From positions 1 through 38,057 of the forward strand of contig JAAZLW010000093.1 in the NCBI GenBank assembly GCA_012799135.1: a stretch of DNA of 38,057 bases, given 5' to 3'. The first letter of the stretch is position 1, and each line of letters begins with the position of its first letter. Both the position numbers and the translations under genes were made by a program. This stretch comes from Bacillota bacterium. GTDB taxonomy: Bacteria > Bacillota > Limnochordia > DTU087. A model generated the notes under the pieces. The model did no database searches. It was given only the letters and a program-made list of their open reading frames with translations, and was not told the DNA's origin. Below are positions 7,198-20,656 of this stretch, piece by piece.

Positions 7198-8094
7198 TCA
7201 ATCTGCGACATAGCCTAAGGCTCTGGATATCTTTCTCGATACCGCCAATACGTTTGGTATGAACAGTTCCAGCCTTTCCCTGGTAACACGGATCGTAGGG
7301 CCGGAGACACTGATCGCGGCAATCACTCCACCACTATGGTCCATAATCGGCGCAGCTACACACCTTATGCCCAACTCATGCTCCTCATCATCGATCGCAT
7401 ATCCCTGCTCCCTAACCCAGCCAATTTGCTTCTCGAACTCTCCCACGTTGGTCATCGTATTGGGTGTATATCTATCAAAGCTACATGAAAAAATGATCTC
7501 CTTTAGCTCTTCCCTGGAGAGTGAGGCCAGCAGCACCTTGCCGAGCGCGGTGCAGTGCACAGGTACCTTTGATCCCACCCTAGATTTCATGGTCAGCACC
7601 TGCGTGCTCTCAATTTTGTCTACGTAGACTACCTGATTAACATCGAGTATCCCCAGGTGAACAGTCTCTTCGGTAAGTCCCATGAGCTGCTCAAGATAGG
7701 GGCGAGCTATTCCTCGCAGATCGATCTGCTCCAAGACACGAGTACCTAACCCGACCAAACGCATGCCCAACCGGTATTTCGCTGTTTCAGGATCCTGGCT
7801 CACGTAACCATTTTGTGCAAGGGTTGCGGCCAAGCGTGAGACTGTGCTTTTGTGTAGCCCCAATATCCGACTCATCTCGGTAACCCCAAGCATTTCTTCA
7901 CTTTCTCCGAGGCAATTCAGAATACTTAAGGCGCGCTGAACGGAAACCACTGTAGAGGTTCTACCCTTCTCGGCGGTCTCGCCATTTTGACTTGTATGAT
8001 TTCCTAATATCTTCTCTTCCTTGCCCATAGCGTGATCATTTCCAACCTTTCGTGCTTGCCAGCGGCTTTGGTCCTCGCTCTTGCCCCGTATCAC
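7198..8094 (-). CDS. IclR family transcriptional regulator
   Basis: The N-terminal winged helix-turn-helix (about residues 48-110: TVVSVQRALSIL ... GLHKSTVSRLAATL) and the C-terminal IclR effector-binding domain (about 125-298, with VHCTALGKVLLA and AISVSGP) are clear. I chose GTG at 8094 because it overlaps the upstream stop as GTGA, a pattern this genome uses elsewhere. ATG at 8028 would give 276 aa, closer to the family norm of about 250-280, but has a poorer ribosome binding site. It is the last gene of the catabolic operon, so it would be co-regulated with it. It is the best candidate to bind the three 17-bp dyads in front of the island's transcription units. The effector is unknown. Confidence 0.92.
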   Translation of the reverse strand: MIRGKSEDQSRWQARKVGNDHAMGKEEKILGNHTSQNGETAEKGRTSTVVSVQRALSILNCLGESEEMLGVTEMSRILGLHKSTVSRLAATLAQNGYVSQDPETAKYRLGMRLVGLGTRVLEQIDLRGIARPYLEQLMGLTEETVHLGILDVNQVVYVDKIESTQVLTMKSRVGSKVPVHCTALGKVLLASLSREELKEIIFSCSFDRYTPNTMTNVGEFEKQIGWVREQGYAIDDEEHELGIRCVAAPIMDHSGGVIAAISVSGPTIRVTRERLELFIPNVLAVSRKISRALGYVAD

Positions 8095-9455
8095 ACCTTG
8101 GATATTGCCTCTCCGATATCCTTCAGTTTCTCGTCCCCGGTATATCCGTAACGCTGAATGCCGATGGTCCAAGCATCACTGGCCAAAGCCGTAGCTATCC
8201 TCTCTCGAAACACTTCCCTGGGGCAATATGCATGTAGCAGCGGAGTCATGCGCCGGGGAGAGCTGGCCAATTCTAAGGCTTCTCTCAGTTTGCGATTCTC
8301 GTTCTCCAGCTTCAGTGGACCAATCTCATCGGGGCGGGGCATACGATAATGCTCAACACCAAAGCCATTGTCTCCTTCCAGTTCTAACATATCTAAGACA
8401 AATGGTACCCAGGCATCTGCCGGAATCCGATGATTCAACTGTGCCAATTGATTAGCATACCATCCCACCATCAATCCCCAATGAAATCGATACAATTTGG
8501 TCACACTGCTAATCTGACCGGACAAAGCGGATATTGTCGAATAATCCATACCTGTTCCCTTATTCATCGGTGGTGCAAATCCTGCAACATTAAGGTGAGT
8601 GTGGCTGAAGCCGCTCCTATCTAGCTCTGATCTCAAGCTTTCAACATAAGCTTTGACCGATCTTGCCTTAAACTCAAAGAACTGGGCAACCCTAGGGGAC
8701 ATACGTTCCCATGTAGACTCCCAACTGCCGGCCGGCGCAATGTCATCTAATGATGCATTTCTCACCCATTTGAGCACCGAAAGGGCAGCTTGACGCATTC
8801 TTTCAAAATCAAAGCCCAGCTGATCAGCTCTCCGATGGCAATGCTTACAGAAGCACAAAAGGTTATCCTCAAAGTGGTAGTTGGTATATTCAAGCCAATC
8901 CACAAAGATGCCATCGGGCTGATAACGCCTAACAACATCAAGCAAGAGACCGAGGCCATACTGAGCTACCTTCGGATTATTGATACACCCCTTCTGCGAT
9001 ATGGCGGGCAAGCGCCGTTCTCCCGAGGGCAGAACAGGATAGTCCTCTTCAGCTAGACCCGGAGGTTTGGCTAAGGATAGCATCATACTGATTTTCATAT
9101 CCCTCGCCCGAGCTGAGGCAACGGCCTCGGCAATTAGGTCCGTCTCAAAGACATGATGTGCAGGTCTATAGGGAGTGCCCGCATAGAGTGACTCTGTGAG
9201 CTCAAAGGGAAATACCAGATGCCCATACAACTCTTTTTTCCCTGACAAAGGCCTCTCCAAGACCCGATCACTACCATCGAGGTCCAGTGGTGGAAGCCTA
9301 GGATCACTGGGATCACCGGTTTCGATAAAACATTTCGGTTCCAAGAAAATGTGATTGATCTGCGCCAGCTCTTGAACATTTGTCAATACAGTCTCGATGC
9401 CTTCATATTGAAGCGGAGGACCGGTGACTGTTATGATCATTGACTTCTCTTTCAC
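8091..9455 (-). CDS. Putative TIM-barrel glycoside-hydrolase-like protein (copy A)
   Basis: I do not recognise a named family with certainty. The roughly 454-aa protein has no signal peptide or membrane segment, so it should be cytoplasmic. The alternation of strands and helices and the segment YQPDGIFVDWLEY (about 193-205) look like the acidic strand end of a barrel glycosidase, similar in style to the hypothetical glycosyl hydrolase (GHL) groups. Next comes LLCFCKHCHRRADQLGFD, a CxCxxC motif shared with the neighbouring gene, which appears to be a diverged paralog. The start is uncertain: GTG at 9455 has GGAG 8 nt upstream; ATG at 9440 is an alternative. It lies between copy B (17-nt gap) and iclR (4-nt overlap). 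A role in cleaving an imported sugar-like compound is inferred from context. Confidence 0.6.
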   Translation of the reverse strand: MKEKSMIITVTGPPLQYEGIETVLTNVQELAQINHIFLEPKCFIETGDPSDPRLPPLDLDGSDRVLERPLSGKKELYGHLVFPFELTESLYAGTPYRPAHHVFETDLIAEAVASARARDMKISMMLSLAKPPGLAEEDYPVLPSGERRLPAISQKGCINNPKVAQYGLGLLLDVVRRYQPDGIFVDWLEYTNYHFEDNLLCFCKHCHRRADQLGFDFERMRQAALSVLKWVRNASLDDIAPAGSWESTWERMSPRVAQFFEFKARSVKAYVESLRSELDRSGFSHTHLNVAGFAPPMNKGTGMDYSTISALSGQISSVTKLYRFHWGLMVGWYANQLAQLNHRIPADAWVPFVLDMLELEGDNGFGVEHYRMPRPDEIGPLKLENENRKLREALELASSPRRMTPLLHAYCPREVFRERIATALASDAWTIGIQRYGYTGDEKLKDIGEAISKV

Positions 9456-9472
9456 GGTATCAACTCCATCGT

Positions 9473-10672
9473 CTAGCCTTGTTGTTTGCAGAGTGCATTT
9501 CGAATCCACGCCATGTTCCGACGGGGCATCAAACCATAATTGTAGAATACATGCCCATCTGCCCCTTGGTCGGTTGTTACTCTAACACGTTTCGCCAAAT
9601 CCTCCGGGCCCTTACACAGAGGATAAATAGCGTGGTGACCGGCCATAAGTGGCCCTCCTTGGCCAATCACTGCTCTAGCGTCACGAATGATCCTAGATGC
9701 TTGCTCTGCGTCTTGCCCATAACAGGTGGTCAATACTCCCTCAGCCACGCCGGCCAATTTGCCCAGATCCTGTCCACTCACCCAAGCGCCATAGGGTCGA
9801 CCTTCGTGGAGGACATAAAGCGGCAAATCGGAACGCAGTTGCTTTCGCATCTCGCCAATGAACTGATTGACAGACTCAGTCCTCATCTTCACATATTCCC
9901 TAAACTCTTCATCGGCCCAGAAACCGGTAGGACCCGCATTCAATGCGCCTTCCGCTTCGGTACTGCCAAAGCCATCATTGGCGGCCGAAAGTCTTTTGCG
10001 CACCTTCTGCTGGAGGTTAGCAACATCAATGCCCAAAGCTTCGGCCCGTTTTCGACAAGACCGACAAAAACAAAGAGACAAGAGCACTTCCTCAGTAGAA
10101 CGAATGGGTATCCCTGTTTTTTCGTGGTGACACTCATGCGTGAACTTGGCAAACCCAGGCGATTCAACCTGTACCATATTTAGATCATACTGGTCTCCCA
10201 GATCCTTGACTAGAGTCGAGTAATACTCAACTACATCGGGATTGCTCGGACAGGGAGCAAAGAAATAGGGATCGCCATATACATTCCGAATCACACACTC
10301 CGGATGAGCCTGGCCCAGGGGAGTATTATGCAAAGCAATAAACCATGCTGATACCGTCAGACCGGCCGCTTGGGCCCGCTCGATCAATTTCTCCAGTACG
10401 TCTTCGTCTTGCTGTTCCACCAAGTTCGAGACCCTTGGCTTGATCAGCAAATCCCTGTATAATCCCATATTAGGGCGAAAGTAGGTCACACCATCCTCGC
10501 CAAAATAAATCTTGCGTTTTGGGTTGTGTGGCAGATAACATTTCACCGAATGATACGTAACAGCCAGGCTGATGTCATTGCAGCCGGCTATTTCACCAAC
10601 ATCCTCTACTACAGTGTCAATTCCCTCATCCAAGACATCCCAAAGATATGTCCAAATAGAATTATATGACAT
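9473..10672 (-). CDS. Putative TIM-barrel glycoside-hydrolase-like protein (copy B)
   Basis: The 399-aa cytoplasmic protein resembles copy A in layout: a segment equivalent to 'DxIxxAVxxARxxGMxxS' (about 93-112, LIERAQAAGLTVSAWF), a PCPSNPDVVEYYSTLVKDL stretch equivalent to CINNPKVAQYGLGLLLDV, and LCFCRSCRKRAEALGID in the same relative place as the CFCKHC motif of copy A. Where copy A has GIFVDW, this copy has LNMVQVES, so the putative acidic residue differs (E for D) and the two may not share a substrate. The start is ATG at 10672 behind AGGAGG (9 nt), much better than the longer frame from 10711. A sugar-active TIM barrel is plausible but not proven. Confidence 0.6.
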   Translation of the reverse strand: MSYNSIWTYLWDVLDEGIDTVVEDVGEIAGCNDISLAVTYHSVKCYLPHNPKRKIYFGEDGVTYFRPNMGLYRDLLIKPRVSNLVEQQDEDVLEKLIERAQAAGLTVSAWFIALHNTPLGQAHPECVIRNVYGDPYFFAPCPSNPDVVEYYSTLVKDLGDQYDLNMVQVESPGFAKFTHECHHEKTGIPIRSTEEVLLSLCFCRSCRKRAEALGIDVANLQQKVRKRLSAANDGFGSTEAEGALNAGPTGFWADEEFREYVKMRTESVNQFIGEMRKQLRSDLPLYVLHEGRPYGAWVSGQDLGKLAGVAEGVLTTCYGQDAEQASRIIRDARAVIGQGGPLMAGHHAIYPLCKGPEDLAKRVRVTTDQGADGHVFYNYGLMPRRNMAWIRNALCKQQG

Positions 10673-10714
10673 GGGGGCTTTCCTCCTAACCACATCACCC
10701 TGATCTATCACCCA

Positions 10715-11878
10715 TCACGATACATACGGATTCCTAGAGTGAGCCTCTTGCACTTTGGTTCCCCGAATAACCAGCCATGGCTGGATAAACCTTTCTAACC
10801 GCAGCTCATTCCCCTTCGAGTCAAGGGCAGCAAGCTCTTGATCAACAAGCCGAAATAGGGTCAGGTTTGCCTGCTTGCCAACTGCGATGGAGCCATATTG
10901 ATCTAATCTAAGGAAGTTCGCTGGGTTGACGGTAACAGCCTGCACTACATCCTCTAAAGGCAGCCCCACAGCCAGCATCTTAGACATGGTGGTGGCTAGA
11001 TCCCATACCGGTCCGTTCACGTTGTGTACATGCAGGTCTGTGCTAATGCTAAAGGGGGTTATTCCTTCTTGCAGGGCCAGCTGGGCCACTGGGAAACTGA
11101 AACTCGCCGCCCCATGCCCGACATCAAGCAAGACCCCCCGGGCAACGGCATCTCTTACACAGTCCATCACAGATCTATCCACAACAATGGAACCACCCTT
11201 TTTCCCATGGTAGCAATGGGTAACCAAATCACCTTCTGTGAGGACTGCCAGAATCTCCTCCAGCAGTGGAGGCGCTTCTCCCACATGGACAAACAGGGGA
11301 AGATGTGCCAGCTGAGCAATCTTCTTGGCCATTTTTACCGGAGTAATCCCCCAATCCTGCAATATCACATGGCTAGCCCGTAGTTTGAGCGCCCGAATAG
11401 AATCTTTGTTGTCCTCGACAGTCTGAAGAATACCATCAACATCAAAGCTTTTATATCCGGACAACTCGCTAATATGGTTGGTCTTTACCAAGCCTATTGA
11501 ACCTACGTTAAGATAAGCAACTATGGGGAAATCATGTTTGGCTATAACATAGTCTCTCAGACCAATGAAGTTAGCTTCACCGGCAGAGCCGGCATCTGCC
11601 AGCACATGCACCCCTGTCGAAGGTCCCACCTCTCCAGGTTGAATACTCAGATCAGTGACGCCATAGTACACATGGGTATGAAGGTCAATCCATCCCGGTG
11701 AAACATAAGTACCTTCCGCATCGATCACCCGTACACCAGCGGGAGGGTCCAGGTGTTTTTGAATGTCGACAACATAGCCCTTATCATCAATCAACAAGTC
11801 CGCAACTGAATTGGCTGGCACTCCTGGGCAGCCAAGGAGCTTTACTTGCTTTACGACAATCGCATTCATAGTGGTCAT
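10715..11878 (-). CDS. Amidohydrolase/deacetylase-family metallohydrolase (cog3964-like)
   Basis: The 387-aa protein is an amidohydrolase-superfamily metal enzyme often mis-annotated as dihydroorotase. Visible motifs are GWIDLHTH (63-70; metal ligands H67 and H69), LKLRASH with K165 as the likely carboxylated lysine, FVHVGE (H198), THCYHG (H221) and STDLH (D281). The closest family I recall is the EF_0837/Atu3266 group (cog3964); members were reported to hydrolyse acyl esters of 2-hydroxy acids such as acetyl-(R)-mandelate. Genes of this group often sit beside a SelA-like PLP enzyme, as in this operon. The start is ATG at 11878, 2 nt after the permease stop, with AAAGGA 5 nt upstream. The actual substrate is unknown; deacylation of an imported compound fits. 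Confidence 0.88.
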   Translation of the reverse strand: MTTMNAIVVKQVKLLGCPGVPANSVADLLIDDKGYVVDIQKHLDPPAGVRVIDAEGTYVSPGWIDLHTHVYYGVTDLSIQPGEVGPSTGVHVLADAGSAGEANFIGLRDYVIAKHDFPIVAYLNVGSIGLVKTNHISELSGYKSFDVDGILQTVEDNKDSIRALKLRASHVILQDWGITPVKMAKKIAQLAHLPLFVHVGEAPPLLEEILAVLTEGDLVTHCYHGKKGGSIVVDRSVMDCVRDAVARGVLLDVGHGAASFSFPVAQLALQEGITPFSISTDLHVHNVNGPVWDLATTMSKMLAVGLPLEDVVQAVTVNPANFLRLDQYGSIAVGKQANLTLFRLVDQELAALDSKGNELRLERFIQPWLVIRGTKVQEAHSRNPYVS

Positions 11879-11880
11879 CC

Positions 11881-12720
11881 TTATCCTTTCACGGCACCCG
11901 CGGTCAGCCCACGAACGATGAACTTCTGCAGCAGCCCGAAAACCATCACTATAGGTACCATACTGATCACCGATGCCGCCATTATTTCACCCCATCGCTG
12001 CGCGTCGGCTCCCTGGTATAGATTAACTAAGCCTACCGGCAGTGTCTGAAGTGACGTTCTGTTAATCAACATGAAGGAGAAAATATAGTTGTTCCATGAG
12101 TTAATCAATGTGTACATGGCTACTGCTACAAGACTAGGACCTGATAGTGGAAGTATGACGCGAAAGAGTGCTCCCAGCCATGTACATCCATCAATCCTTG
12201 CAGCATCCTCCAAATCAGGTGGTAAGGCACTGAAGTTCCCCTTAAGCATCCATAAAGCAAACGGTAATCCCTGAGCTATATGGGCCACAATCACACCCAA
12301 ATGCGTGTTCAATAGCCCTACATTGAACATCCAAAAATAGATGGGTAAGGCCAGTAAAACCTGAGGAACCATGTAAATAAACAGCACCATATTCGACAGC
12401 TTTTCAGAGCCCGGAAACTTAAGTCTGGCAAGGCTATAAGCTCCCAGAGCGGATAGCAGGATCACAACAACCGTTGCGATAAGGCCTACCTTAGTACTAT
12501 TATAAAAGAACCCCCAAAACATCTTGTTACTAACGACTTCAGAATAGTTCTCTAATGTCATGTCAGATCCCGGCAAGAACGTCTTGCCCGTAAACAGGCG
12601 ACTGATTGGTCTTAAAGAAGACAGTATCAACCAATAAATCGGAAAAAACATTATACATGCGATCAAGATACTTACTACGACACGAAGATAGTAACGTGCA
12701 GCTTTCGATACCTTCATCAT
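11881..12720 (-). CDS. ABC transporter permease, CUT1 (MalG-like)
   Basis: The 279-aa inner-membrane protein has about six hydrophobic segments and the EAA-loop motif EDAARIDGCTWLGALFRVIL (about 171-190), which contacts the ATPase. It matches the MalG/carbohydrate-uptake-1 second permease, including the C-terminal GLTAGAVKG. It overlaps the upstream permease by 4 nt (ATGA), so the two should be made in equal amounts. No ATPase gene is in the window; a shared MsmX/UgpC-type ATPase elsewhere is the usual solution. The substrate is presumably a sugar or sugar-acid derivative. Confidence 0.93.
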   Translation of the reverse strand: MMKVSKAARYYLRVVVSILIACIMFFPIYWLILSSLRPISRLFTGKTFLPGSDMTLENYSEVVSNKMFWGFFYNSTKVGLIATVVVILLSALGAYSLARLKFPGSEKLSNMVLFIYMVPQVLLALPIYFWMFNVGLLNTHLGVIVAHIAQGLPFALWMLKGNFSALPPDLEDAARIDGCTWLGALFRVILPLSGPSLVAVAMYTLINSWNNYIFSFMLINRTSLQTLPVGLVNLYQGADAQRWGEIMAASVISMVPIVMVFGLLQKFIVRGLTAGAVKG

Positions 12721-13658
12721 GCAGCCTGGCTCCTTCGTTTTTGATCAAGTGAGTAATAGACGGCAAACAGCACTAATAAGATGCCAAACATGGTAGTAGT
12801 AATCGCGGATGCCCGCCCATATCGAAAACTGTTGACTCCCATCTTTACGGCTGTAATTGCCAAGACTTCTGTACTACCCAGTGGCCCACCACCTGTTAGA
12901 ACGTGAATGAAGGAGAAATGGTTAAACAGGAAAATGGTCCTCAGTATGATCATGGTTGTCACTACTTCCCTAATGCCAGGTAAGGTAATATACCAGAACT
13001 CCTGAAAACCATTGGCCCCGTCAACCCTTGCCGCCTCTTTTTGATCCTCGGGGACCTGCTGCATTGCACCTAGGATCGTAAGATAGACAAAAGGCAGTCC
13101 TTTCCAGACTAGTGCCACCATAACAGCCCCAAGTGCAGTATTTGTCTGCCCCAGCCAATTCATTGGTGCTTTGATCGCACCTATGCCCATCAGAAAATCA
13201 TTGATGGGGCCTATGGTGGGATCGTACATCCAGTTCCACATCAGTCCTGCCACAACTATTGGTATGATCCATGGTGAAATCAGCATAGACCGCACCAGGC
13301 CCTTGCCCGGGAAATCGAAATCGGTAATCAATGCAACGATCAATGCTAAGATTACCTGTATTGACATTACCACACCGGACACCAATACCGTGCGCCCCAA
13401 GGTAGGTAAGAACCAATCAGATGTAAATACCCACTTATAGTTCTCCAATCCTACAAAGGGTGCATCAGAGCCACCAAACAACAGATCTATGTCGTACAGA
13501 CTCATGATAATAGAATCAACCAGCGGTTTGAAGATGACTAGTGCAATCCCCAAGAGACTGGGGATAAAGAGCAATAGCCCCAGTCTCTCTTTTTTCGTCA
13601 TCCTAAACCAATGGCAACCAGCATGTTTCTGGATATCCAAAGGCTTAGAATTCTTCAT
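12717..13658 (-). CDS. ABC transporter permease, CUT1 (MalF-like)
   Basis: The 313-aa protein begins MKNSKPLDIQ, followed by six predicted membrane segments, starting LGLLLFIPSLLGIALVI. The EAA motif is EAARVDGANGFQEFWYITLP. I place the start at ATG 13658, 10 nt after the binding-protein stop and with GGGT 8 nt upstream; a frame extending to 13838 overlaps the binding-protein gene and lacks family similarity. It pairs with the MalG-like permease (4-nt overlap) and the upstream binding protein to form one importer. Confidence 0.92.
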   Translation of the reverse strand: MKNSKPLDIQKHAGCHWFRMTKKERLGLLLFIPSLLGIALVIFKPLVDSIIMSLYDIDLLFGGSDAPFVGLENYKWVFTSDWFLPTLGRTVLVSGVVMSIQVILALIVALITDFDFPGKGLVRSMLISPWIIPIVVAGLMWNWMYDPTIGPINDFLMGIGAIKAPMNWLGQTNTALGAVMVALVWKGLPFVYLTILGAMQQVPEDQKEAARVDGANGFQEFWYITLPGIREVVTTMIILRTIFLFNHFSFIHVLTGGGPLGSTEVLAITAVKMGVNSFRYGRASAITTTMFGILLVLFAVYYSLDQKRRSQAA

Positions 13659-13668
13659 GAATGGAACC

Positions 13669-14934
13669 CTACTTTCGCTTGAGAATATCTTCCATTTGCT
13701 GCTGAGCCCAGCTCGCTGCCTGCTCTGTTGTTTCGCCACCAACCATGCACTTGAGTACCATATCCTGGTATATATTCTGGGCATCGAAAAGGGCGGCATA
13801 TTGATTAACTCCATGTGCCATGCACGGGAACCACCCATTTTGCGCCACTTTCATTGCCGGTTCGAGAAAATGTCGGAAGGGCGCTACATTGGGAAGCTGC
13901 CAATATCTGCCGCTAGCCACATAGTTTCGCTCAGCCGGCATGTTGCCCAGGAATCCCTTTAGGAAGTAGATATCATAGTTCTCCGGTTTGTACATCCAAC
14001 TGATGACTTCTTTGGCAGCATCCAGATCCTTGCAATCCTTTGAAATCGCTATTGAATGGAAGGCATAATAATTCTTGGTGCCTCCATTTTTGGGAATCTC
14101 GACCATCCCTATATCCTTACTCAACTCTGTCTTGGCCAGATTATCGGCAAAACTGGCGCTGCTGTTAAGCATTGCAGCTCCACCATTGACAAAGAAAAGA
14201 CGGGACTTGCCCATGTCATAAGTAACGGAGCCGGGATACATGTAACCATCCTTGTACAGGTTAGCAAGAAAATCGAGGGTTTCTCGTGTCTCAGGGCTAT
14301 CGATAATCACTTCTAGGTCCCGCCCGAGAGTTTCTGCGCCACGAGCCGCCATCCAGGTATGCACTGTGTGTCCTACAGACTTGTCTGCCAGAAGTGATAC
14401 ATATCCATACCGATCCTTCGTAGTCAGCTTCTTGGCATACAACGCGAACTCATCCCAGGTTGTCGGTGCCCCTTCTATACCGGCTTCCTCAAACCAATCT
14501 GTCCGATAGTAAAGCAAATGGGGCACGACATGCCACGGAACACCCCATAGATTACCATCGGTAGTGTTATAGTAAAGATCCTGTTCTGAGAAAGAATACT
14601 GCCCTTGCAAGTCTCTAACCACATCATTCATGGGTTGAAGGTATCCGAGTAACCCATAGGATGCAGGCTGCTTAGGTTGCAGCATGAGCAGATCGGGCAG
14701 TTGATTAGTCCTGGCAGACCCAATTACCTTCTGCGCGTAGTCGGAAAACGGGATGAAATCCACTTCGATCTTGATATCGGTATGCTCTTGGTTAAATTTC
14801 TCCACCATTGCTTCAAAGCCAGCGTGATAATTGCCAAACCACGCCGTTATGGTAGTAGCCGCAGATGCTGCACTTGCCCCAACAAAAATCATAATGGCAG
14901 TCAGTAAGATAGCTAGTGTCTTCTGTTTGGTCAT
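13669..14934 (-). CDS. Extracellular solute-binding protein of the CUT1 importer
   Basis: The 421-aa protein has a Sec signal peptide (MTKQKTLAILLTAIMIFVG then ASAASAA) and a mature family-1 binding fold: ITAWFGNYHAGFEAMVEKFN at the start, PDLLMLQPKQPASYG, NLWGVPWHVVPHLLYYRTDWFEEAG. It captures the substrate for the two downstream permeases. No Cys follows the signal peptide, so it is not a typical lipoprotein, which is unusual for a monoderm Gram-positive. Upstream is GGAGGAGAGG; a GTG at 14946 is an alternative start. It lies 185 nt after the SelA-like gene; that gap shows no terminator and no clear promoter. Confidence 0.93.
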   Translation of the reverse strand: MTKQKTLAILLTAIMIFVGASAASAATTITAWFGNYHAGFEAMVEKFNQEHTDIKIEVDFIPFSDYAQKVIGSARTNQLPDLLMLQPKQPASYGLLGYLQPMNDVVRDLQGQYSFSEQDLYYNTTDGNLWGVPWHVVPHLLYYRTDWFEEAGIEGAPTTWDEFALYAKKLTTKDRYGYVSLLADKSVGHTVHTWMAARGAETLGRDLEVIIDSPETRETLDFLANLYKDGYMYPGSVTYDMGKSRLFFVNGGAAMLNSSASFADNLAKTELSKDIGMVEIPKNGGTKNYYAFHSIAISKDCKDLDAAKEVISWMYKPENYDIYFLKGFLGNMPAERNYVASGRYWQLPNVAPFRHFLEPAMKVAQNGWFPCMAHGVNQYAALFDAQNIYQDMVLKCMVGGETTEQAASWAQQQMEDILKRK

Positions 14935-15119
14935 TTCTTGGTGCACCTCTCCTCCGATGTTTAGCGTTGACCCTTTCTAGTACTCCGGTTCATTCCCATC
15001 CTGAGACCTTATCCCGCCTCCAACGCGATCGTACTTGGTTGACTCACCCCCAATGCCTGGATTGCTCTGGAACCAAAAACATCGATTTGCAGATCGGAAC
15101 TGGCTCTCTCCTACAATGA

Positions 15120-16238
15120 TTAGCTATCCTTCAACACTTGTCTTAGCCTTTCGATAACGATAGCTAGCTCCCCCTCAGCTAAAGTCATGGGGTTTACATA
15201 GATACCATCTTTGCCTGCCAATTTTACATATACGGCCGGCGAGCCGTTGAGAAGGTCATTTGCAATCTCCGATGCGTTTCGTTGACTATCTGCAAATCTC
15301 ACTATGGCCCGAGGTAATGGCTGTCCCGCTTCATTGGGAAAGCTGCGTTCCACGATAACGCCACTTTCTCCAACAAATGCAGCTTTCAGTAACCTAATCT
15401 GTTCCCCACACCATTGGGCCCTAGCCACATGATCCATGTTCACATATTGTTTTACGGCTGCAAAAAGACCGGCAATTTCTTCCCGCCCGACTTTGAGCAT
15501 TCTCCCTATGCCACTGTTGGGAAATGCTTCCTCCAGCAAGATGTCAACCAGCCATTGCTTACCGACCATAAGTCCACTTGCCTGTGGCCCTCGCAGGTCC
15601 TTGCCTCCGCTGAAAATCGCCGCAGTCACTCCTGCCTTTGTAAAATTCCATAGGTTATCGACTGGCGGGACTTGGGCTGCGGCATCCACGATCACTGGTA
15701 CTCCTCGGGACTCTGCCACAGCGACCGTATCCTGAAGCCCGAGGGCTCCTTCCTCTAGCCACCCACTTAGGGTGTAGAATACTGCGATGGTATGGTCTGT
15801 TATGGCATTGGCAAGATCTGCCTTGGAAGCGGCGCTGCCGTCGCCAGAGCATTGAACTTCAGTGATTCGTACCCCAAGCTGTCGAAGGCTCCAGTCATAG
15901 GGATTCCTATGGGTTTTAAATACAACCACTTCGCACCCAGAAGTCTCCTGGAATGTAAGGGTAGCCGCGGCTTGTCCCAACTTCGCCGCCACACAGGCAG
16001 CTGCTGCTAGATAAAGTCCTGCCGCAGCTCCGCAAGTTATGTAGGCAGCCTCATTGTGAGTAAGCTCAGCTATTCTGGCACCCACCCGTCGCTGCAGCTC
16101 CCGTATACTAACATGAGAGTTAGCGGCCTCTTGCATCGCCTTCAAGGTGATCTCACTCATTCGAGACCCACCCACTACTGTATATGTACCGGCTGCATTG
16201 ATTAACTTACTGACACCCAATTCCTCGTAAATATCCAT
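15120..16238 (-). CDS. SelA-like PLP-dependent enzyme (DgaE-like)
   Basis: The 372-aa protein belongs to the SelA-like branch of fold-type-I PLP enzymes. It opens with LGVSKLINAAGTYTVVGGSRMS (from residue 8), has VIVDAAAQ with the cofactor-contacting D185, and the Schiff-base lysine K213 in FSGGKDLRGPQASG. Characterised relatives include DgaE, a D-glucosaminate-6-phosphate ammonia-lyase; true SelA has an extra N-terminal tRNA-binding domain that is absent here. An elimination on an amino-sugar-acid-like substrate is therefore plausible. The start is ATG at 16238 behind AAAGGGGG (10 nt); the frame extends to 16274 without a better site. It is the first gene of the long operon. Pairing with a cog3964 amidohydrolase recurs in other genomes (EF_0837/EF_0838). 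Confidence 0.87.
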   Translation of the reverse strand: MDIYEELGVSKLINAAGTYTVVGGSRMSEITLKAMQEAANSHVSIRELQRRVGARIAELTHNEAAYITCGAAAGLYLAAAACVAAKLGQAAATLTFQETSGCEVVVFKTHRNPYDWSLRQLGVRITEVQCSGDGSAASKADLANAITDHTIAVFYTLSGWLEEGALGLQDTVAVAESRGVPVIVDAAAQVPPVDNLWNFTKAGVTAAIFSGGKDLRGPQASGLMVGKQWLVDILLEEAFPNSGIGRMLKVGREEIAGLFAAVKQYVNMDHVARAQWCGEQIRLLKAAFVGESGVIVERSFPNEAGQPLPRAIVRFADSQRNASEIANDLLNGSPAVYVKLAGKDGIYVNPMTLAEGELAIVIERLRQVLKDS

Positions 16239-16294: not shown

Positions 16295-16452
16295 TTCCGG
16301 ATCCGGATTACTCTGCTCATGGCACCAATCCCACATCTGTTGCGCTATGTGGAACGATGATGCAACTTTTCTTGGTTAGTGTTTGATTCTACGCTGATCC
16401 GTGAAGTCCTGCCAACTAAAGAAAAATCCACCCCGATACCGGACCCGGATTG
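16295..16452 (+). repeat. Pair of CCGGAyCCGGATT elements
   Basis: TTCCGGATCCGGATTA at 16295-16310 and TACCGGACCCGGATTG at 16437-16452 match at 13 of 16 positions and lie 142 bp apart in the same orientation. The first contains a perfect 12-bp palindrome, TCCGGATCCGGA. They could bind a second regulator. Confidence 0.45.
16339..16355. promoter_or_regulatory. Putative regulator operator, site 1
   Basis: GTTGCGCTATGTGGAAC: left arm GTTGCGC, 3-nt centre, right arm GTGGAAC. It lies about 100 bp before the SelA-like start. It has the same length and layout as sites 2 and 3. Confidence 0.5.
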
Positions 16453-16597
16453 CAGACATAAACAACCCGAGCCCTCACTTATCGCATTTGCAGCGGTTGC
16501 GTACGAAGCCTAATTGCTCAAGCCCTGAAAATCCCCTCACCGAGCAGGAATACCCCCAGAAACCTAGAATACGCACACATAACCGTATTGAAACTGT

Positions 16598-16614
16598 GTT
16601 GCGCTGTTTGCGAC
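16598..16614. promoter_or_regulatory. Putative regulator operator, site 2
   Basis: GTTGCGCTGTTTGCGAC: the left arm is identical to that of site 1, and the right arm TTGCGAC is more degenerate. It lies 68 bp before the DUF362 start. Sites 1 and 2 share the first eight bases. Confidence 0.45.
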
Positions 16615-16681
16615 AACATGTCTCATGTCGCCAATTATCAGTGTCTGTAAGGGAACCAACTAATCGAGGAGAGTGGTCAGT

Positions 16682-17818
16682 ATGGATCAAGTGGCACTTG
16701 CTAGACTTGGCAACCAGAGCATTTTCGAGGCTGTAAGTCAGGTGGTTGATCTGGTTGGAGGAATTGACAAGTACGTTAAAAAAGGTGACCTTGTGCTCAT
16801 AAAGCCCAATTCTTTCATATTGGCCCGCCCCGAGACAGGGTTCATAACCCATCCTGAAGTGGTCTTGGCTATTGCTAAACTCTGCCACAAACGGGGGGCT
16901 CGAGTAGTTGTGGGAGAAAGAAGGCGCAATATCTTCACCAACTTCCAGGATTACCCTGAGATCAACGATTACGCTGAATTGATCAGCTTCGATGAAGCTC
17001 CTCTGAAGCTCAAGACCATCCCAGGCGCAAAAGCCCTGTATATGTCCATAGCTATACCCCGCATAGTTGATGAATGTGACGTTTTTATCAATGTTCCCGG
17101 ACTGAGAACCCACGCCCTAACCGATATGTCTAATGGTCTCAAGAATGTGATGGGTATACTCCCTGATAACAGCACCCGGCTTGTCCATGACCTAGGTCTG
17201 ACCGACTCCATAGTAGACCTGAACTTGGCCCGACCAAGTGATCTGATTGTCAGTGATGCCATATACTCAGTGCAGGGCAATTTCCCCGCCGGCGGAGAGA
17301 TGATACAAACCAACTTTCTTATGGCCTCTACCAATATGGTCGCCATTGATGTCGTGGCAGCTACTATCATGGGGTTTGACCCGTCTGCAGTTGAACACAT
17401 CAATGAAGCTGCGGCCCGAGGCTTGGGTCCCGCCACTTTGGATGAGATCAAAGTTGTGGGTTCAAGTCTGGATTCAGTCAGGTTCACACCTCAAAGGGCT
17501 GACCATGACTATGGCAAGTACAAAGACCGCCTTGATATAACAGACGGTGCTGCATGCAAGGGCTGCCGACAATCACTGGCCAGCGCAATCGCAGCTGCCG
17601 CAGCTGAGATCGGAGAGGAGCAGATCCGGGATCTACGGATCATCACCGGTCCTGTTGAAACACTCCCAGCCGGTCCCCGGGACAGAGTCCTCATGTATGG
17701 GTCCTGTACCCGTCGTTTCAAGGACCAAGGTACCTTCATCCCCGGCTGTCCGCCACTGGCCGGCCAGGGTAAGAAATTCATCGTCAAGCTATGTGGTAAA
17801 AGGGAAGAGATGGAATAG
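16682..17818 (+). CDS. DUF362 domain-containing protein with C-terminal cysteine cluster
   Basis: The 378-aa protein shows DUF362 (PF04015) hallmarks: VALARLG at the start, GDLVLIKPNSF (35-45), FITHPEVVLAIAKL (54-67), NVPGLRTHALTDMSNGLKNVMG (137-158) and VAIDVVAATIMGFDP (220-234). The C-terminus has C292, C295, C342 and C356 (CKGC, GSC, PGCPP), a possible iron-sulfur or metal site. The function of this branch is unknown. The start is ATG at 16682, 10 nt after GAGGAG; GTG at 16673 is too close to that site. It is the first gene of a two-gene plus-strand unit divergent from the long operon, 5 nt before the 17824 ATG of the next gene's longest frame. Confidence 0.85.
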   Translation: MDQVALARLGNQSIFEAVSQVVDLVGGIDKYVKKGDLVLIKPNSFILARPETGFITHPEVVLAIAKLCHKRGARVVVGERRRNIFTNFQDYPEINDYAELISFDEAPLKLKTIPGAKALYMSIAIPRIVDECDVFINVPGLRTHALTDMSNGLKNVMGILPDNSTRLVHDLGLTDSIVDLNLARPSDLIVSDAIYSVQGNFPAGGEMIQTNFLMASTNMVAIDVVAATIMGFDPSAVEHINEAAARGLGPATLDEIKVVGSSLDSVRFTPQRADHDYGKYKDRLDITDGAACKGCRQSLASAIAAAAAEIGEEQIRDLRIITGPVETLPAGPRDRVLMYGSCTRRFKDQGTFIPGCPPLAGQGKKFIVKLCGKREEME

Positions 17819-17835
17819 AAAGGATGGTCTGCAAG

Positions 17836-18639
17836 ATGAAAATCGGACTATGCACAATTGCCTTTCGAGATCACTCCTTAAAAGACGTGATTGAGATCGC
17901 TAAAACCGTCGCTGTTGATGGGATTGAGATCTGGGGACAGCCGGCCCACGTAGGTCCCGACATAGACCAGACTGAGCTGGAGATCGTAAAACATATGATA
18001 GAGCAGGCCAATCTCCGGGTATCTGCCTATGGATCTTACATCAGGTTTGCCGCTAATGACAGAGAGGTGAACTCTGAAAGCGACTTCAAGAAGGCGCTGG
18101 CCATTACTAAGGCTTTAGGCACAGACATAATGAGAATCTGGGTTGGAAGTAAGCCCTCAGAGGACATGAATCAGCAAGACTGGGAATTGGCCACTAACAG
18201 TCTCACAAAGGCGTGTGTAGAAGCTGACAAGTACGGAATCTACCTAGCTATGGAGATGCATGACAGCTGTTTTACAGATACTGAGACAGCAACTCTGCGG
18301 TTGATCAATGAGGTTAAGGCCGATAACCTTAAAGTAAACTACCAGCCTTCGTTTCGGCTCGCTCCCGATCGAGAACTGAAAAGCCTACAAGCAGTCAGAG
18401 AGTTTACCATCAATGTCCACGCCCAAAACCGCATTAGGTTGGCCTCAAAACCGGGGGAGAAACTGGAGCTCGCCCGGCTTGCCGAGGGTGTTGCCGATTA
18501 CAGGGCTATCGTGGAAGAGCTTCAGTCCATTGATTACTCCAAATTCATCTCAATTGAATTTGTTCAGGGCCCTGATCAGCTAGACGCTCTCAGACAAGAT
18601 ATCGAATACCTAAGAAAATGCATACACTCGTATCGATAG
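17836..18639 (+). CDS. Sugar phosphate isomerase/epimerase-like TIM-barrel protein
   Basis: The 267-aa protein is a xylose-isomerase-like TIM barrel (AP_endonuc_2 family): MKIGLCTIAFRDHSLKDVIE, VDGIEIWGQPAH, LGTDIMRIWVG, GIYLAMEMHD, INVHAQN and ISIEF. The usual metal ligands Glu, Asp, His, Glu correspond to E140, Q170, H195 and E241; the Asp position reads VNYQPSF, so one ligand looks replaced by Gln. Such enzymes epimerise ketoses or isomerise and dehydrate sugar acids. The start is ATG at 17836 with AAAGGA upstream; the ATG at 17824 directly abuts that site. A GGGAGG/CCTCCC dyad follows at 18659-18686 but lacks a T-tract. Confidence 0.85.
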   Translation: MKIGLCTIAFRDHSLKDVIEIAKTVAVDGIEIWGQPAHVGPDIDQTELEIVKHMIEQANLRVSAYGSYIRFAANDREVNSESDFKKALAITKALGTDIMRIWVGSKPSEDMNQQDWELATNSLTKACVEADKYGIYLAMEMHDSCFTDTETATLRLINEVKADNLKVNYQPSFRLAPDRELKSLQAVREFTINVHAQNRIRLASKPGEKLELARLAEGVADYRAIVEELQSIDYSKFISIEFVQGPDQLDALRQDIEYLRKCIHSYR

Positions 18640-18692
18640 TACCTTGGGTATGGAATGAGGGAGGACACTAGGCTATCCCCCCTCCCTGCCTC

Positions 18693-19151
18693 CTACTCAA
18701 CCTGAACGATGATCTCTACCTCTACACAAGCCCCACCGGGTAATTCCGCTACCCCAATGGCAGATCGCGCGTGTTCTCCTTTCTCTCCAAAAACCCGTTT
18801 GAGGAACTCAGATGCCCCATTTACTACCTTGGGCTGATCCCCAAACCCTGAAGCTGATGCGACAAAGCCAGTAACCTTAACTATCCTCTTTATCCGATCA
18901 AGGTCACCAATCACAGACTTGACCTCAGCCAAGCAGCGCAAAGCACATATCCTGGCTGCCTCATAGCCTTGTTCCACCGAGATCTCGGAACCCAATTTCC
19001 CCAGGTGAAGTGGCTTCCCATCTGCCACGGCAGTTTGGCCCGAAGCGTAGACAAACTCACCGGCCTTGACTGCTGGGACATAAGCCGCCACCGGTTTCGG
19101 GCACTCGGGTAGTTCATAGCCCAAATCTTTGATTCTCTGTTCAACCTTCAT
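18693..19151 (-). CDS. RidA/YjgF family enamine/imine deaminase-like protein
   Basis: The 152-aa protein has the chorismate-mutase-like Rid fold: GEFVYASGQTAVADG, ISVEQGYEAARICALRCLAEVKSVIGDLDRI, and the conserved Arg in HARSAIGVAELPGGACVEVE. Rid proteins hydrolyse reactive enamines and imines released by PLP enzymes; the Arg and the final Glu of this motif match the usual active-site positions. It is longer than canonical RidA (about 128 aa) and nearer to the YjgF-like subfamilies. The start is ATG at 19151 behind AGGAGG (7 nt). It lies 18 nt after the larA homolog, probably in the same operon. A link to the SelA-like enzyme is inferred. Confidence 0.9.
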   Translation of the reverse strand: MKVEQRIKDLGYELPECPKPVAAYVPAVKAGEFVYASGQTAVADGKPLHLGKLGSEISVEQGYEAARICALRCLAEVKSVIGDLDRIKRIVKVTGFVASASGFGDQPKVVNGASEFLKRVFGEKGEHARSAIGVAELPGGACVEVEIIVQVE

Positions 19152-19169
19152 AAAGACTCCTCCTCGTAT

Positions 19170-20447
19170 CTATAGCTTCACCAAAGTTATGCCACCATAT
19201 GGCACAACCCCAAATGTGGCCTGTGAGCCATGCCTATAAGTGGCCATTTCGATGGCCTCTTGCATTGAAGCAGCTGGTTCAAAGCCAAGACTCCTAATCT
19301 CGCCGGCACTCATGCCATCCGATACACAAATCACCTGAGCACGCTCTAAAAGCCTGGCATGGGCAGCACAGACACTGCCCGCAATTCTATCTGCAATTAC
19401 ACCTTGCTCTAAAGCTTCAAGGGTTAACTGCGGATCTTGCGTGCTCCAGCTAAGTACTGTGTTTGTGTGTTCCGGTGCATCTCCCGAGACACCTTCCGGT
19501 GCCGAGATGGCAAATACTATGGTACCACCCGGTTTTACTCCCAGATTCGCATAGTAAAAAGGCTTAAACCCCTGCCAAAAATCGCGATCACAAGGAAACG
19601 CGTTATAGATTACCACATCAGCCAACCCAGGAATGTTCGGTCTAAATAGCTTCTCTGCCAACTTCACGGCCGCCCGGTGTGCCTGTATATAATGTCCAGC
19701 AAAACACTCTACCAGTTTCCCACTGTGGTTTAGCACTGTATTAACTAGGAAAACCGGCCCAACTCTGCCTGCCACCACTTCGATTTCTGCTCTCACCGGA
19801 CTCTCAGGATTTCCTGGCAATTGCAGGGGTTCGGGATAGGTCCCCCCGATGAAATGAGTGGATTCCGTCGTCTTCTCGCTGCAGACTCCCGGCTGAATCA
19901 TCTTGGCCCCTCCACCCCATCCGGCCAAGGGGTGAGGCATGACCATACCTACGAGTATCCGCAGATCAGCTTCATACACATCCCTGTTGAGCTCTACGAC
20001 AGTACCGGATTGCGTTTTTCCTAGATAGATGTTCTTGGTAGGGTCTTGAAAATCGTGGTTTTCCACCGGTACCCGGGAGACTACCTCCGACCCAAATCTA
20101 TCGACGATCTCTTGGGGACTCATTGGCCTATGGGTTCCCAGTGCGATCACAACCTTGATGTTTGAGTCCGGCACTCCAGCATCATTTAGATAATCCAATA
20201 ACGGTGGCAGCAATTTCTTCTGGGGAGTAGCCCTGGTCAAATCATCGGCCACAATCACTACCTGATCAGATGGATCCACCTGATCCTTTAGCTTGGGTGT
20301 TCCCAGTGGGTTATCGAGAGCCTTTATCAACTCATCTACCTCGCTGGAAGCGGGTTGTAAGTCTCCTAGTTGAGCATAGTACAAGAGGTTGTCGTCTTCT
20401 ACATCGAAGTTGAGAGTTCTACATCCATATTCGAAACTAAACTGCAT
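19170..20447 (-). CDS. LarA-type nickel-dependent 2-hydroxyacid racemase/epimerase homolog
   Basis: The 425-aa protein matches LarA (nickel-pincer racemases). Key residues align almost position for position with Lactiplantibacillus plantarum LarA: R72 in ADDLTRATP (R75), H106 in ALGTHRP (H108), H172 in MPHPLAGWGGGAKM (H174), K182 (K184, the covalent cofactor site) and H198 in STHF (H200, nickel ligand). It should therefore be an active NPN-cofactor enzyme. The LarA superfamily includes lactate, malate and phenyllactate racemases and aldonate epimerases, so the substrate cannot be named. The start is ATG at 20447 with GGGAG 8 nt upstream. No larB, larC or larE is in the window. It is followed by ridA. 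Confidence 0.9.
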   Translation of the reverse strand: MQFSFEYGCRTLNFDVEDDNLLYYAQLGDLQPASSEVDELIKALDNPLGTPKLKDQVDPSDQVVIVADDLTRATPQKKLLPPLLDYLNDAGVPDSNIKVVIALGTHRPMSPQEIVDRFGSEVVSRVPVENHDFQDPTKNIYLGKTQSGTVVELNRDVYEADLRILVGMVMPHPLAGWGGGAKMIQPGVCSEKTTESTHFIGGTYPEPLQLPGNPESPVRAEIEVVAGRVGPVFLVNTVLNHSGKLVECFAGHYIQAHRAAVKLAEKLFRPNIPGLADVVIYNAFPCDRDFWQGFKPFYYANLGVKPGGTIVFAISAPEGVSGDAPEHTNTVLSWSTQDPQLTLEALEQGVIADRIAGSVCAAHARLLERAQVICVSDGMSAGEIRSLGFEPAASMQEAIEMATYRHGSQATFGVVPYGGITLVKL

Positions 20448-20521
20448 AAGCCCCACTCCCACCTGGTAACATTCTCAAGCTGTTGGTCACCCTCGGAAAT
20501 TGACAGCACAACAATCATGCT

Positions 20522-20538
20522 GTTGCACAGAGTGCAAC
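20522..20538. promoter_or_regulatory. Putative regulator operator, site 3
   Basis: GTTGCACAGAGTGCAAC is a perfect 7-3-7 inverted repeat, 75 bp before the larA-homolog start. It is the best member of the three-site set and defines the layout. The rest of 20448-20724 holds this site and the leuS terminator; no clear promoter boxes were found. Confidence 0.6.
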
Positions 20539-20610: not shown

Positions 20611-20656
20611 GACAAACAAGCTGACACTAGACCATCAGTCAGCCTAGTGCCAGCTT
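20611..20656 (-). terminator. Intrinsic terminator after leuS
   Basis: Arms 20644-20656 and 20618-20630 form a 13-bp stem (one G-U pair) when read on the minus strand, with a 13-nt loop, followed by GTTTGTC. It lies about 70 nt after the leuS stop. It separates leuS from the larA unit. Confidence 0.7.

Follow-up and report, generated by a model that had tools for sequence, protein, structure and literature searches.

The group 1 operators of IclR-family regulators follow the consensus GKTYCRYW3-4RYGRAMC, and a subgroup of the form GTTYCRYW3RYGRAAC spans 17 bp (GTT-N11-AAC), is over-represented in Firmicutes and is frequent in sugar and sugar-acid regulons (PMC8222616). Group 2 operators read TGRAACA...TGTTYCA, and those of PobR, PcaU and HmgR have external half-site repeats (PMC8222616). 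Here we analysed a 38,057-nucleotide stretch (the window) of contig JAAZLW010000093.1 from a Bacillota bacterium of the class Limnochordia, in which three 17-bp dyads precede three transcription units of a putative catabolic cluster: a larA–ridA pair, a long operon that begins with a DgaE/SelA-like gene, and a DUF362 unit. On the basis of sequence comparison, we propose that the dyads are probably the operators of an autoregulated, KdgR-like repressor of the IclR family (7198–8028) that coordinates the three units.

The window sites resemble the GTT-N11-AAC subgroup in being odd dyads of 17 bp with GTT...AAC ends and a short, mostly A/T centre, in preceding catabolic genes of a small local regulon, and in having centres within the position range described for IclR operators (PMC8222616). 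Their ends run GTT...AAC, not AAC...GTT as in group 2. Operator 1 (GTTGCACAGAGTGCAAC, 20522–20538; no strand is assigned to any of the three) is a perfect 7-3-7 dyad that precedes larA–ridA and has the top matrix score in the window. Operator 2 (GTTGCGCTATGTGGAAC, 16339–16355) precedes the DgaE/SelA-like operon and has 5 of 7 symmetric pairs; the weaker operator 3 (GTTGCGCTGTTTGCGAC, 16598–16614) precedes the DUF362 unit and has 4 of 7. A preliminary description of this DNA had listed the same 17-mers, a single perfect inverted repeat among them and a spacing of 68–101 bp to the first genes. Its sequences and coordinates proved exact, each site lies in non-coding DNA ahead of a separate transcription unit, and operator 1 alone is fully symmetric. 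The spacing was borne out as well, the dyads standing about 74, 101 and 67 bp from the likely starts of larA (ATG at 20447), the SelA-like gene (ATG at 16238) and the DUF362 gene (ATG at 16682), as counted from the sequence; the site centres are at about −76, −83 and −109 (nearest first). The SelA-like operon and the DUF362 unit diverge from the gap at 16.24–16.68 kb, and a terminator-like hairpin of 17 pairs between leuS and larA (20618–20656, minus strand) makes larA–ridA a unit of its own. GTT...AAC ends are present in operators 1 and 2, and the left arm of operator 3 is an intact GTTGCGC. When the sites are read base by base, the fourth position is G in five of the six half-sites, the CRY core fits most of them, and GTTCCAC alone fits YCRY/RYGR fully.

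Leave-one-out scoring, in which a symmetric matrix built from two sites scores the third across the window, always placed the left-out site within the top three. The sites scored 15.5–22.9 bits compared with 8.9–11.2 bits for the best non-site, a margin of at least 4 bits. With an exact background, the score of the left-out site is expected approximately 1e-6 times for operator 1, 7e-4 times for operator 2 and 2.5e-3 times for operator 3 in the two intergenic regions (668 bp together). We also searched the genome (3.1 Mb) with patterns allowing mismatches. The strict consensus GTTGCRCNNNNTGNRAC has three matches, which are the three sites; this pattern was fitted to them, and about 1.5 matches are expected by chance. 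Across the class, the strict palindromic pattern matches in four genomes, with three matches outside the window. At three or fewer mismatches, the sequence of operator 1 recurs elsewhere in the genome only as operator 2, and the relaxed symmetric pattern GTTSCRCNNNGYGSAAC without mismatches finds only these two. At two or fewer mismatches, the class that includes operator 3, GTTSCRCNNNGYGSAAC finds 59 matches compared with 59 for the control. The preliminary description had held that many equally good matches at random places in the genome would speak against a regulon: there are none for operators 1 and 2, whereas operator 3 is one among many. Operators 1 and 2 are strong, well beyond chance given their position; operator 3 is weak, could be a chance match and counts mainly through its location.

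Since the sites themselves had shaped these patterns, we sought independent evidence at other IclR genes. For 57 IclR homologs, most of them from the same class, we surveyed the 320 bp ahead of the gene, with the region from −600 to −320 as a control; the termini came from the window sites and the surveyed regions belong to other genes, and the test is independent of the published consensus (PMC8222616). Dyads with GTY...RAC ends and at least 5 of 7 pairs occurred 14 times at a length of 17 bp, compared with 0–4 times at each of the ten remaining lengths between 14 and 24 bp (sum 19, mean 1.9). Only two 17-bp dyads of this kind were found in the control region, so the enrichment occurs only near the gene; its Poisson probability is approximately 1.6e-8, for loci that are not fully independent. 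Close homologs of the window regulator (from G050 and G053; 46–47% identity, helix VHKSTASRL) have GTTGC...GCAAC dyads (GTTGCCCAATGGGCAAC and GTTGCCATTTGCGCAAC, and GTTGCTGTCTACGCAAC) between iclR and a divergent pair of genes for 2-keto-3-deoxygluconate-6-phosphate (KDPG) aldolase and a PfkB kinase, and a distant regulator with a KSTVSR helix has GTTGCGTATTATGCAAC directly upstream. A site above 12 bits was found for three of the four KSTxSR regulators compared with 1 of the 53 others (Fisher 5e-4, with a cut-off set post hoc and two of the three from the same genus), which is no more than suggestive of a link between the KSTxSR helix and this site type.

The candidate regulator (7198–8028, minus strand) is encoded by the final gene of the long operon and has the recognition helix LHKSTVSRL. 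It matches IclR_C (PF01614, 194.1 bits, 1.8e-57) and HTH_IclR (PF09339, 65.3 bits, 4.3e-18), both above cut-off, and its N-terminal helix-turn-helix and C-terminal ligand domain make it a member of the IclR family. Its best NCBIfam match is KdgR (NF011671), with a score of 242.4 that falls below the equivalog cut-off of 275. It is like KdgR in this best match and in its close homologs in the class, which face KDPG aldolase and sugar kinase genes, but it lies in a DgaE-like cluster, and the window sites differ from the gamma-proteobacterial KdgR motif RWWGAAACGNCGTTTCAKKA (PMC8222616). As previously claimed, no other regulator is recognised in the stretch from 7.2 to 20.5 kb, in which two open reading frames have no confident family match.

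Several observations weigh against a single IclR regulon. The right arm of operator 3 is poor, and this site ends in GAC, one base off the subgroup form. The fourth base of most window half-sites is G, whereas the subgroup has C or T (PMC8222616). Upstream of the 57 IclR genes, a spacer of 3 is not enriched unless GTY...RAC ends are required; without that requirement no spacer is favoured, so the claim about operator form rests on ends and length together. Elsewhere, the orthologs of the SelA-like gene have neither the exact motif nor a good match to it. Among 399 genomes of the phylum searched for larA and DUF362 orthologs, none has all three units together, which makes footprinting of the three-site arrangement impossible. 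The genome also encodes an IclR paralog (G000:C226) with the helix FNKSTLSR, which has Lys-Ser-Thr-x-Ser-Arg in common with the window regulator and could bind the sites in its place. We consider binding by this paralog, or by a non-IclR protein, improbable. The paralog would make the same Lys-Ser-Thr-x-Ser-Arg contacts and has a dyad, GTTTCTCTATTTGAAAC, upstream of its own gene, but that site has GTTTC, not GTTGC, and its neighbours are an RraA-like gene and PfkB kinases rather than the window cluster, whereas the window's IclR gene belongs to the very operon that operator 2 precedes.

A narrower regulon, in which only operators 1 and 2 are IclR operators, operator 3 is a chance match and the DUF362 pair is either outside the regulon or under the control of operator 2 from the other side of the divergent spacer, is possible but on balance unlikely. 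Operator 3, with its 4 of 7 pairs, departs from the symmetric pattern at two positions, a level at which genome matches equal the control, and about 12 equal scores are expected genome-wide; yet it retains its left arm, stands 67 bp before a first gene and, with a matrix built without it, still ranks third in the window by a 4-bit margin. That all three intergenic sequences, picked by eye, are alike by chance seems very improbable to us. The patterns were fitted after the sites had been seen, and the 7 GTT-N11-AAC words in the window are below the 9 expected, but the leave-one-out scores, the positions and the independent IclR evidence (the 17-bp enrichment, and PMC8222616) all argue otherwise. 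We give even less credence to the idea that the dyads act at the RNA level as terminators or leader hairpins. On the plus strand, the dyad of operator 1 fits a loosely defined terminator pattern, but it is not at the end of any plus-strand gene of the cluster, and a terminator role was rejected because of the strand. With imperfect symmetry, the same motif precedes units on both strands, and the leuS-side terminator is a separate element, the 17-pair hairpin at 20656–20618.

For the KdgR-like repressor that we favour, the IclR protein, as a dimer or tetramer, would bind pairs of GTTGCRC half-sites and repress both larA–ridA and the operon of DgaE-like, ABC transporter, amidohydrolase and iclR genes and, less surely, the DUF362–TIM barrel pair. 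With iclR inside the operon behind operator 2, the protein would also control its own synthesis. The ligand that releases it would be an intermediate of the pathway; a 2-keto-3-deoxy sugar acid, or a keto acid related to one, is plausible. What the data show are the sites with their positions, the family to which the regulator belongs, and that IclR genes of the class go with this form of operator; we infer the binding of IclR, repression as opposed to activation, and the effector. A promoter-like TTGGCA-N18-TAGAAT (16415–16386, minus strand) stands about 30 bp upstream of operator 2, a placement that would suit a repressor, although matches of this type are not above the shuffled background here. 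The product of DgaE in its known pathway is KDPG; because of this product, and because KDPG aldolase genes stand opposite close homologs of the regulator, a keto-deoxy sugar acid is a reasonable guess for the effector. The preliminary prediction of one regulon including larA and ridA is supported in its IclR component by length and ends, the enrichment at IclR genes and the dyads of homologs, and is weakest at the DUF362 site.

Further elements adjoin the sites. A possible external direct half-site, GTTGCAT (16360–16366, minus strand), lies 11 bp outside operator 2 and matches GTTGCAC at 6 of 7 positions; it recalls the external repeats of PobR, PcaU and HmgR and may be due to chance. Among the three sites, such a third direct box was found beside operator 2 only. 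In other genomes, three-box sets of direct and inverted half-sites adjoin IclR genes (L069, upstream of iclR, and L060), for example GTTGTAC-N3-GTTCGAC-N3-GTCGAAC and GTTTATC-N3-GCTAAAC-N3-GTTTAAC. Immediately after operator 3 comes a small dyad, ACATGTCTCATGT (16608–16630), with GCGACA...TGTCGC as an outer repeat; it may be a leader hairpin or an additional operator.

The long operon, on the minus strand, begins with a homolog of the DgaE/SelA-like pyridoxal phosphate (PLP) ammonia-lyases (15120–16238; TIGR01437, 5.5e-56). This protein is homologous to DgaE over its full length (TIGR01437/NF047797; PDB 7lc0) but far below the cut-offs for DgaE (190 compared with 385 for TIGR01437, and 163 compared with 600 for NF047797), so its substrate is probably different. 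It is followed by genes that match the families of an ABC transporter solute-binding protein (13669–14946) and two ABC permeases (12717–13838 and 11881–12720), forming a sugar-type importer, then by an amidohydrolase/deacetylase (10715–11878; NF006689, above cut-off) and two open reading frames with no confident Pfam or NCBIfam family (9473–10711, 412 amino acids, and 8091–9509, 472 amino acids), the 412-residue protein with a weak GHL10 match. On the plus strand, family matches identify a DUF362 protein (16682–17818) and its partner, a xylose-isomerase-like TIM barrel (17824–18639). This pair is kept in other genomes as a conserved two-gene unit of the phylum (L159 and L162), where LarA and DgaE were not found adjoining. 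In other genomes, DgaE-like, RidA and IclR genes again occur together, at L034, L035 and, less closely grouped, L004.

The LarA-like nickel-pincer racemase/epimerase homolog (19170–20447, minus strand) matches Lar_N (192.4 bits) and LarA_C (44.3 bits) above cut-offs and is homologous over its full length to the LarA superfamily (LarA and Mar2/LarAH6; PDB 6d6z and 5huq). Alignment to 6d6z and the translation reveal that His, His, Lys and His are all present. Unlike the described members, it reaches the NCBIfam cut-off of none of the LarAH families, and its sequence probably represents an uncharacterised LarAH group. We take its His, His, Lys and His to be the catalytic and nickel-pincer nucleotide-binding positions of LarA. 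A search for LarE, which with LarB and LarC makes the nickel-pincer nucleotide cofactor, found a homolog in the genome (C338, 338 bits). The genome encodes three more Lar_N-domain proteins (G000:C101, C292 and C86). Downstream of larA is a gene for a RidA-family protein (18693–19151, minus strand); RidA beside a PLP lyase fits the clearing of reactive enamine or imine products. More tentatively, an IclR specificity variant with an H-K-S-T-V-S-R helix may read GTTGCRC, with G in place of the family's Y, and control an undescribed catabolic regulon. In such a regulon the ABC importer, the deacetylase, the DgaE-like lyase with its RidA and a 2-hydroxyacid racemase of the nickel-pincer type, from a new LarAH group, would act together to break down an amino-hydroxy acid or an amino sugar acid.

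The survey of IclR genes also returned other pairings of helix and operator. Regulators with an HKATVHR(L) helix (L034, L048 and L051) have 17-bp dyads of the GTCTCGY type, in line with the weak tendency of His at position 32 to prefer C at position 10 (PMC8222616), and K-S-[ST]-V-x-N helix types in the class are accompanied by GTTCA/GTTCTA dyads. A helix-to-operator code across the class is possible.

Local control by an IclR regulator is of a standard, known kind; what is added here is the tie to a nickel-dependent racemase homolog, and we found no description in the literature of an IclR-controlled LarA/DgaE cluster. Because larA–ridA is a separate unit behind leuS, gene order alone groups it only loosely with the rest of the cluster. 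The proposed operators would link the LarA-like racemase and RidA to the DgaE-like lyase pathway, and a LarA homolog that is still uncharacterised thereby gains a testable hypothesis on its substrate. Across the class, the survey connects types of recognition helix with types of operator in a little-studied lineage.

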